A stretch of DNA of 47,538 nt, from contig JAAYCQ010000220.1 in the NCBI GenBank assembly GCA_012729715.1, positions 1 through 47,538 on the forward strand, given 5' to 3'. The translations under genes were made by a program, and so were the position numbers. Every line of letters begins with the position of its first letter. Position 1 is the stretch's first letter. Source of the DNA: Syntrophomonadaceae bacterium (lineage in GTDB: Bacteria > Bacillota > Syntrophomonadia > Syntrophomonadales > Syntrophomonadaceae). Under the pieces are notes generated by a model. That model saw only the letters and a program-made list of their open reading frames with translations. It had not been told where the DNA came from and did not search any database. Positions 1 through 9,032 of this stretch are shown in pieces.

Positions 1-9
1 TAAGAACAA

Positions 10-125
10 GAATGTGTTGTTTCCCCGCTGCGAAACTGTCGCCCCGGTATTAATCTGTTGTCACAAAGCTTAAGTCATAGAAAATTAATTTGTCGTTGCT
101 GCCGATGGTAATTTGTCGTTTAACA
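10..125. mobile_element. Probable terminus of a Tn7/Tn5053-like (DDE TnsB/TniA-type) transposon with repeated transposase-binding sites
   Basis: Read inward on the minus strand: TGTTAAACGACAAATTACC...CAACGACAAATTAAT...TGACAACAGATTAAT...GCGACAG. This is a TGT terminus followed by repeated (C/T)GACAAATTA-like motifs. Plus-strand copies: TAATTTGTCGTT at 85-97 and 109-120, ATTAATCTGTTGTCAC at 49-64, ACTGTCG at 35-41. It lies exactly where the downstream helicase ORF is truncated. Confidence 0.5.
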
Positions 126-2341
126 CTAAAGAATTCGAGGATCTTTTTAAAAGCATTGAAGTGATAGAAAATAAAATCCAAGATCTAAACAAGCTGATTT
201 CTAAAAAAAATCTTTACCTGGAAAAGTGTCAAAAACAACTTGAGAAAGCTCTAAACGCATTGTTTAAAAATGCGGATAAAATTAGTGAGATCTCCATACT
301 ACTTGAAAAAGCAGAAGATGATCTGAATATTGAAAAGGCCAGGTTTGTAGATCTAAATCAAAGAAAACTTGAGCTTAAGAATGTGTTGGATACTGCCCAA
401 CTACGAATAAACTCCCAAAGAATAGTATGTGACAGGTTACCTTCTCACGAATATCTTAGTAAAGAGATTACATCTATTACAGATCAAATAATGAGATTGA
501 CAGGTGAAATACAGGCTATACAATTGGAGATTGACCAAATTCAAATGAAAGTAATCTCCAATGCAACGATAATATTTGCTACGTTAACCAAGAATTACAC
601 GGGAAGGGAACTGGAAACAGAGAAATTCGATGTTGTAATTATCGATGAGATATCAATGGCACTTCCACCAACCATATTATTAGTAGCACACAAAGCACAA
701 AAAAAAGTTGTATTAGTAGGCGATTTTCTACAACTTCCTCCTGTAGTAAGGGGTACAAATAAGGAAACAAATCCACAGCTTAATATAGATGTGTTTCATC
801 TTGCAGGGGTAGCTAGAGACATGAAAGCTGTACCTAATTGTCCGGTATTAGCGAGGCTTTCTGTACAACGTAGAATGTTGCCCCAAATTTCTAAGGTTGC
901 TTATAATTTGGCGTATAGAAAAGCAGGATTAAGATTAAAGGACGATAAGGAATATTTAACTGTCCGTTCAACTCCTGATTGGATACAAAGAATATCCGAA
1001 AAGCCATTAATAATTGTGGATACAGCTGAAATGCATTGTTGGTGTGGTAAGCAGCCCCAGACTTTAAGTCGGTTTAATTTTTATACGGCCAATATTGCAA
1101 TCGAGTTAGCACGCCGTTTTATTAGTAGCCTTGAACCTCCCAATGATAATGAAACTTTACCGATAGGAATCGTTACTCCTTATGCTGCTCAGAGACGAAT
1201 TCTTTCTCAACTTTTAATAGAAGCAAAATTGGAGCCATGGGTTAAAGCGGGAACAGTACATACCTTTCAAGGAGGAGAAGCTGAATTAATAATATTTGAT
1301 TCAGTACTTGACGAACCATACTGGTCAGCAAGATTATGTAATCCCAGAGATGCAAACGAGGTAATACGTGACTTGAATGTTGCAGTTACCAGGGCAAGGC
1401 ATAGGTTCCTTTTTTTGGGTTCATCTATATGGATGAATAGACATGCAAATATAAATAGCGGATTAGGAGAATTCTGGTCTTTGCTTTTGCAAAAGAATGA
1501 TCCGGTACCTATTGGTAAGTTTTTTGAGAGTAATCAAGTACAGCCGGAATTAAATTTTGGTTTGAACACCATAGGATGGAATAATACAGATGGAGACGAA
1601 GAATATACCTTTGAGCTGTTAGATGAACAAAGTTTCTTCCCGCGATTCACAAACGATCTAGCAAACGCCCAATATTCGATATTTGGACTCGCTCCTTATT
1701 TTGGACAATTCCGTTGGCCACAGATAGAACCATTCTTCAGAGCTGCCTTGCAAAGGGGGGTAAGTGTGACATTAATTGTCCCAGTTATTGATGAAAATAC
1801 TCTCAATAAAACTTATGTGGAAAATGTCATCAATAATTTGAAAGCTTTGGGAGCAATTATTATTTATGCAAATGGACTTCATGGGAAAGATGTTCTGATT
1901 GATCAGGAGGTTCTCTATACTGGTAGTATGAATTGGTCCAGTCATAGAGGACGAGTGGAAATTATCCATAGAATTCATTCTGCAACATATGCTCAAAAAT
2001 GGCTGGATTATATACAGGCTAAACACATAAGAAGTGCATCGCTACAGGAGGACGAAACTCTTAGAATTTGCCCGTACTGTGGATGCACAACAATAATAAT
2101 TAATCAAAAAAAGCAGAGGGCATGGGATCGTCAACCCATAAAGGTGGGATGCTCTAACCCTGATTGTAAAAAATATTTACGAAATATAGATGAACGTCTA
2201 CCTTTTAACAATATCCCGGTATGTGAGATTGATGGTAGAACGCAGTATAGAAGAGTAGTAAGGGGGAGAAGGGACGTCTGGGAATGTCCTGTACATCCCA
2301 GGGAAAGGATAAAGGTTGTACCGGGTGATCCGGAAAGTTGA
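113..2341 (+). pseudogene. 5'-truncated SF1 (DNA2/NAM7, COG1112-like) helicase with C-terminal PLD domain and Zn ribbon; Mokosh type II-like
   Basis: Has FDVVIIDEIS (motif II), GDFLQLPPVV (III), QRRMLPQI (IV), GTVHTFQGGEAE (V), NVAVTRARHRF (VI), a PLD HxKx4D motif (HGKDVLID...GSMNWSSH) and CPYCGC/CSNPDC cysteines. No Walker A (GxxxxGKT) upstream of the coiled coil; in-frame TAA at 86-88. Confidence 0.7.
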
Positions 2342-7184: not shown

Positions 7185-9032
7185 TTAGTTCTCATCAAAT
7201 TCAGCATCAATTACCTCGGAATCACCGGCTGCCCCAGCAGCATCTGCAGTAGTAAGTTCGAGTCCCTGCATAATTTCCTCCAACTCTTGCACCACAGTCT
7301 CAATCTGTTCAACCGGAGCTTTTTCTTCCAGAGCCTGGCGTAGGCGGTTGATAGCCTCCTGGGCTTTCTCCTTGTCAGCCAATGATACTGCTTCGCCCAT
7401 GGCTTCCAGCTGACGGCCTGCATTATAGCATATCCCATCAGCGTGATTACGAGCTTCAGCTTCCTGTTTACGCTTGCGGTCTTCCTCACTGTAACGTTTA
7501 GCATCTTCAATCATCCGGTCTATTTCAGCTTTATCTAAATTAGAAGAATTGCTGATGGTGACCTTTTGCTCCTTACCGGTTGATTTCTCCCGAGCATTTA
7601 CGGTTAGAATACCGTTGGCATCAATATCAAAAGTAACTTCAATCTGGGGAACTCCCCGCATAGCCGGTGCAATTCCATCCAGTTTGAACTGACCCAAAGA
7701 ACGGTTATCCCGAGCCAACTCCCTTTCTCCCTGCAGTACATGAATATCTACAGCCGGTTGGTTATCTTCGGCAGTAGAAAACACTTCACTTCTTCTAACC
7801 GGGATAGTAGTATTTCTTTCGATAATCCGGGTCATGATTCCGCCCATGGTCTCAACTCCCAGTGAGAGCGGGGTAACATCCAGCAGGACCACGTCTTTAA
7901 CCTGCCCGGACAAGACTCCGGCCTGAATGGCTGCTCCTACTGCAACTACTTCATCCGGATTTACCCCCATGTTAGGCTCTTTACCAGTCAAATCCTTAAC
8001 CAGTTTTTGCACCGCCGGGACCCGGGTGGAACCACCGACCAGAATGATTTCTTCAATATCCTCTTTGGTTAAACGAGCGTCTTTTAGAGCATTTTCAACT
8101 GGTACTCGTAGTTCTTCTACTAAATCATGAATCAAGTTTTCAAATTTGGCCCGGGTTAATTTCATATCCAGGTGTTTGGGGCCATCAGCATCCGCCGTAA
8201 TAAAGGGCAGGCTGATTTGCGTCTCGGTTACACTGGACAATTCCACTTTGGCTTTTTCTGCCGCCTCGGTTAAGCGCTGCAGTGATTGCTTATCTTTACG
8301 CAGGTCAATGCCGTAGTCTTTTTTAAACTCATCTGCCAGCCAGTCTACTACCCGTTTATCAAAGTTGTCACCACCCAGGTGGGTATTACCATTGGTGGAT
8401 TTCACCTCAAAAACGCCGTCGCCTACTTCCAGAATGGATACGTCAAAGGTACCGCCCCCCAGGTCAAATACCAGGATAGTCTGGTTATTTTTACTATCCA
8501 GACCATAAGCCAGAGCTGCCGCTGTAGGCTCATTAATAATACGCAAAACATTTAGTCCCGCGATTTTACCGGCATCTTTGGTAGCCTGACGCTGGGCATC
8601 ATTAAAATAAGCGGGTACGGTAATTACTACATCATTTATCTTTTCCCCCAGATAACGGGAAGCATCCTCAACCAGTTTTTTAAGTACCAGAGCCGAAATT
8701 TCCTCAGGTGATATCATATTATTACTTACTTGAAAACGAACGGCATCATCATTGCCAGCCACTACTTTATAGGGAACCAGGGTTCTCTCGTCGGCAACCT
8801 CGGAAAAGCGCCGCCCCATAAATCTTTTCACCGAGTAAAAAGTATTCTCCGGATTAAGTGCAGCCTGCCGCTTGGCAATCTGTCCCACCAATCGCTCCTC
8901 ACCTTTGAAAGCAACTACCGAAGGAGTAGTGCGAGCTCCCTCCGCATTAGTAATAACCTCCGGATTACCGGATTCTATAACGGCAACGGCTGAATTAGTC
9001 GTGCCCAAATCAATACCTAAAGCTTTTGCCAT
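7185..9032 (-). CDS. dnaK: Molecular chaperone DnaK
   Basis: [41 protein letters not shown]; 615 aa. Confidence 0.98.

Follow-up and report, generated by a model that had tools for sequence, protein, structure and literature searches.

A split helicase gene in a Syntrophomonadaceae genome and the end of a probable insertion sequence for DUF6431, TnsB-like and MuB/TnsC-like proteins

Introduction

What kind of mobile element ends at the left edge of this contig, and how is its end related to the incomplete helicase gene beside it? The stretch of DNA analysed here (the window; 47,538 nucleotides) is the entire contig C200 of a draft Syntrophomonadaceae genome (2.67 Mb, 298 contigs, 93% completeness, 4% contamination). 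An initial annotation had placed a transposon end at this edge, likened it to the ends of Tn7-like, Tn5053-like and type V-K CRISPR-associated transposons (CAST), and put the body of the element to the left of the window. The features that were delimited are collected in Table 1.

Table 1. Features at the left edge of the window
Feature	Position	Strand	Details and evidence
Insertion sequence right end	1..125	-	Terminus at 125; body runs left, past the contig edge; end profile E=1.9e-17 and copies on C125 and C30
Second internal repeat ACGACAAATTA, putative transposase site	86..96	-	Exact copy, spaced 23 bp from the other repeat
First internal repeat ACGACAAATTA, putative transposase site	109..119	-	Exact repeat; position matches the repeats of related right ends
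Target-site duplication CTAAAG, 6 bp	126..131	.	Same 6 bp immediately before the left end on C99
Helicase-PLD (Mokosh-like) gene, 3' part, split by the insertion	132..2341	+	Pfam AAA_11/AAA_12/PLDc_2; PADLOC MkoA/MkoC; 5' half on C99

The right end in the window

The reverse complement of the left edge reads as it had been quoted, with a TGT terminus followed by spaced repeats: two exact copies of ACGACAAATTA and degenerate copies further inward. Taken alone this 11-mer is weak evidence, with five matches in the window at one mismatch or less against 1.2 expected. The end was therefore compared with a profile built from 16 right ends of related DUF6431-type elements, none of them from this genome. 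The profile matched the window from 125 to 6 with 59.4 bits, at an E-value that is approximate because the profile is small, and its best match in 2.85 Mb of shuffled control sequence scored 10.5 bits. The window end thus fits the end profile of insertion sequences that carry genes for DUF6431, a DDE transposase and an AAA ATPase. The right end also recurs in the same genome, identical over 124 bp at C125:1-124 and with 96% identity at C30:389-513, and one end of a complete element on C188 is a more distant match. Recurrence within the genome and the profile score against shuffled sequence show that the right end is not a chance resemblance, and a transposon end at this edge is borne out. Viral contigs gave no match to the exact right-end core, and neither the 200 relatives nor the 399 genomes of the phylum that were searched contained a near-identical full copy.

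On C30 (L019, 1-514), this third right-end copy adjoins a tail resembling istA and a stretch resembling an IS21 end; no left partner was found for it. Could the window carry the end of an IS21-family element? The istA tail lies upstream of the right-end copy, and IS21 ends also carry repeats. In a relative (G031), however, the istA-istB unit has behind it a short stretch of its own that is homologous to C30:211-255, which indicates that C30 holds two adjacent elements. In addition, the left ends found on C99 and C184 resemble that of C188, and a profile built from DUF6431-type elements only matches the window end. An IS21 end has next to no probability and was rejected, since the istA tail belongs to the neighbouring element.

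The insertion site and its paired flanks

The listed open reading frame at 113-2341 has its start codon side within the element. Its AAA_11 match in Pfam begins only at position 121 of 257, so that the N-terminal part of the helicase domain is missing. A full helicase homologue from elsewhere is an open frame of 1095 aa, and a search of the same genome with the N-terminal part of this homologue led to C99:7958-8755. The end of C99 (L186) carries, in order, the helicase 5' half with its Walker A motif (7928-8864), CTAAAG and a left end, TGTAGCGCAACAAC..., which aligns with the left end of C188. When the two flanks are joined and one CTAAAG is dropped, a single 1055-aa open reading frame spans the junction. 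The insertion into the helicase-PLD gene duplicated CTAAAG and split the gene.

The window copy therefore has a partner left end of the family type and a short target duplication, and the genome contains both element ends and both helicase parts, on separate contigs. The orientation of the right end and the left end on C99 agree with an element body left of the window, and the partner end that had been suggested as a check was recovered directly after CTAAAG. The predicted duplication of ctaaa starts where it had been placed, at 126; its length is 6 bp rather than 5. An intact helicase 5' half contiguous upstream had been named as evidence against a transposon end. The 5' half lies on C99, with the element between.

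A second pair of flanks was found in the same genome. The left end on C184 and the right end on C125 are both flanked by CTCAAAT (7 bp), and joining them minus one duplication restores a 140-aa CheY-like frame. The left ends of C99 and C184 are identical over 125 bp. The shared stretches are probably about as long as a large assembly k-mer; this would account both for the contigs ending at these points and for the missing body. The body of the window copy is probably absent from the assembly because identical copies collapsed during short-read assembly.

Alternatively, the window copy may be a shortened derivative that has kept both ends but no genes and depends for its movement on a complete copy acting in trans, for example the one on C188. 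In favour of this, the assembly has two copies whose ends are identical and whose bodies are absent, and the one complete family transposase detected in the genome lies on C188, where the end sequences are different. However, the ends of C188 have clearly diverged from those of the window type, which makes cross-mobilisation doubtful, and a lost repeat body is the usual outcome for multi-copy elements in short-read bins. A non-autonomous derivative is accordingly regarded as unlikely, and an element with its own genes is preferred.

The insertion accounts for the split defence-like helicase gene and links the contigs into two pairs, C99 with C200 and C184 with C125. The helicase-PLD gene resembles MkoA/MkoC of Mokosh, and since it is split the system is unlikely to be active here.

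A family of three-gene elements

The complete element on C188 is 3350 bp long, starts with TGTAGTGCGACAA and ends with TCGTTCAACA. It carries three genes in one direction, encoding a 207-aa DUF6431 protein, a 424-aa DDE transposase (rve, Mu-transpos_C) and a 267-aa AAA_22 ATPase. The order shared by the family is left end, DUF6431, DDE transposase, AAA ATPase, right end. A scan of genome contigs gave 49 loci that encode relatives of the C188 transposase; DUF6431 lies upstream of the DDE gene in 45 of them and the AAA gene downstream in 45 of them, and the exceptions are mostly contig ends or truncated copies. The AAA gene is also there in all nine of the longer loci with DUF6431 and DDE genes. 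Of 30 DUF6431 loci taken from genomes of the phylum, 24, including that on C188, had an adjoining DDE gene within the short stretch examined. Plasmids from Cupriavidus and Streptomyces share the gene order, and a similar gene was found in Rhodococcus.

The window copy's ends are about 65-80% alike to those of C188, and its gene content is deduced from C188 and the relatives. On this basis, positions 1-125 are very probably the right end of an insertion sequence with genes for DUF6431, a TnsB-like DDE transposase and a MuB/TnsC-like AAA ATPase, inserted in the helicase gene.

Target duplications were also studied in Clostridium sp. KNHs214, where a 3152-bp element with ends TGTAGTGCG...TTTAACA has copies in assembled contexts. 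A first automatic pass for duplications was noisy, and the family motif was required of every end that was used. Duplications of 6 bp were found at L079, L081, L083 and L084, and one of 7 bp at L089. Once one duplication is removed, the frames of an MFS transporter gene, a GGDEF gene and an HsdS-like gene are open. Duplication length is not fixed (6 or 7 bp), and at some copies in KNHs214 no duplication is seen.

Does the window then hold a true Tn7-like or CRISPR-associated transposon, of the V-K or Tn5053-like kind, with TniQ, cas or cargo genes left of its edge? The likeness noted by the initial annotation is real in part: the transposase of related elements is closest to V-K TnsB by sequence and by fold, the TGT terminus and repeat layout agree, and the body of the window copy is unassembled. 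Membership is another matter. All delimited related elements measure about 3.1-3.35 kb and carry the DUF6431, DDE and AAA genes only; no TniQ, TnsA, cas or cargo genes were found in them. Their duplications are 6-7 bp, not 5. A search of the same genome for TniQ gave no match, but the control likewise matched nowhere, which makes this a weak negative. A CAST, Tn7 or Tn5053 element is thus highly improbable. Because of the gene content of the delimited elements and the length of their duplications, the family is not filed with any of these groups.

Two variants were seen among the relatives. Plasmid relatives carry a small extra open reading frame (62-85 aa) after the AAA gene (L189 5056-5313, L190 5182-5379, L192 5100-5324 and L193 4933-5121), which gave no Pfam match in the three tested and could be a fourth component. 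In a 6.9-kb member (L115, 5036-11915), roughly 3.4 kb of unassigned DNA interrupts the transposase gene. Searches of the literature returned no description of the DUF6431-DDE-AAA gene set; ISfinder lay outside the search, and the family may be catalogued there already.

The three proteins

The roles proposed for the proteins of the family are drawn from sequence relationships. The best solved relative of the DDE profile in the PDB is TnsB of the V-K CAST ShCAST (E=3.5e-18, over almost the whole protein). The predicted structure (pLDDT 82, pTM 0.58) likewise gave V-K TnsB as its top fold match (E=1.9e-20), followed by IstA, Tn7 TnsB and MuA. Residues D168, D231 and E267 are invariant and likely form the catalytic triad. 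For the AAA profile, the best solved relative is MuB, entered under the name 'ATP-dependent target DNA activator B' (E=1.4e-6), and the Walker A and B residues are invariant.

The DUF6431 protein has invariant C47, C50, C86, C89 and H93 and a predicted helix-turn-helix. Weak Pfam matches of its relatives to the ISL3 zinc ribbon and helix-turn-helix suggest that it binds DNA. The structure model (pLDDT 81, pTM 0.74) gave no fold match in the PDB, with a best E-value of 0.49. A relationship to TniQ was considered and rejected, as the best E-values were 0.14 for PDB sequences and the same 0.49 for folds. DUF6431 has appeared alongside transposition in one gene table (PMC12323340). Its position beside the DDE gene across loci identifies it as a stable partner of this type of transposase, with licensing, aiming or mere regulation as candidate roles.

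TniQ is described as near-universal in Tn7-like elements, and TnsE as the sole known selector other than TniQ (PMC11406308). A tentative proposal, with the odds against it, is that DUF6431 fills the role that TniQ has elsewhere, as a third type of partner with no relation to TniQ or TnsE, and licenses or aims a transposase of the TnsB-TnsC type; the elements would then be a minimal, CRISPR-free Tn7-like system across Bacillota, Actinomycetota and Pseudomonadota. The interesting part of the family is this non-TniQ protein in third place. A compact family that combines a transposase closest to V-K TnsB, an AAA protein and an unrelated zinc-ribbon/helix-turn-helix protein offers a small, testable system for the regulation of such transposases.

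In the proposed mechanism, the DDE protein would, by homology, bind the spaced CGACAAATT repeats, nick the TGT/ACA termini and join them to the two target strands at positions 6-7 bp apart. The AAA ATPase may assist on target DNA in the manner of MuB, IstB or TnsC, and the DUF6431 protein is probably a DNA-binding partner that assembles or aims the complex. TnsA is missing, and the analogy with V-K CAST (PMC11406308) makes it probable that the element moves by a replicative route through a cointegrate or by a copy-out route.

Insertion neighbourhoods

Insertions in unrelated genes make targeting look loose. Several family members sit inside or next to defence loci, and a raw listing of these gives the helicase, an mza operon, a type III restriction-modification pair, a CRISPR array and an HsdS-like gene. 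A leaning towards defence loci was weighed, but no claim is made, given that further copies hit genes for an MFS transporter and for GGDEF and CheY-like proteins, among others.

Individual sites were recorded as follows. A related right end directly adjoins a CRISPR array with the repeat ATTTCAATCCACGCTCCCACGCAGGGAGCGAC at L042 (G029:C20, 1-270). At L043 (G037:C12, 207-5464), another lies about 300 bp downstream of the type III restriction-modification pair, and at L083 a KNHs214 copy sits within the HsdS-like gene. In another genus, a right end identical in reading to that of C188 follows mzaB and mzaC and cuts the next open reading frame (L044; G027:C373, 1283-5722); recent transfer or shared contamination is possible.

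Comparison with known systems

The family probably works like the core of a Tn7-type system, TnsB with TnsC/MuB. Type V-K CAST (ShCAST) has the best sequence and fold relative of its transposase and shares with it an AAA partner, TGT ends with spaced repeats and the lack of TnsA, whereas its delimited members have three genes in about 3.3 kb, without Cas12k, crRNA, TniQ or cargo, and duplicate 6-7 bp. Tn7 and Tn5053 (TnsABC or TniAB with TniQ) likewise have a TnsB/TniA-type DDE transposase with a Mu C-terminal domain, an AAA partner and TGT/ACA ends. In the family, DUF6431 replaces TniQ and there is no resolvase or cargo; the target duplication of Tn7 and Tn5053 is 5 bp, unlike that of the family.

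IS21 (IstA/IstB) and phage Mu (MuA/MuB) also pair a DDE transposase with an AAA partner for target DNA. IS21, however, has no third protein, and the family transposase scores 66.7 bits against the IS21 model (NF033546), below its cut-off of 160. The IS1202 family (ISAjo2 and relatives; PMC10132070) is similar in its insertion sequence size, TnsB-like transposase, TGT/ACA ends and internal binding site; it has no additional proteins, and its ISAjo2 group has 5-bp duplications and targets dif sites (PMC10132070). Lastly, IS481 (NF033577) is the best NCBIfam match of the transposase, at 175.9 bits and below the curated cut-off of 224. Plasmid relatives are annotated as IS481, whereas the family described here has additional genes for the AAA ATPase and DUF6431.
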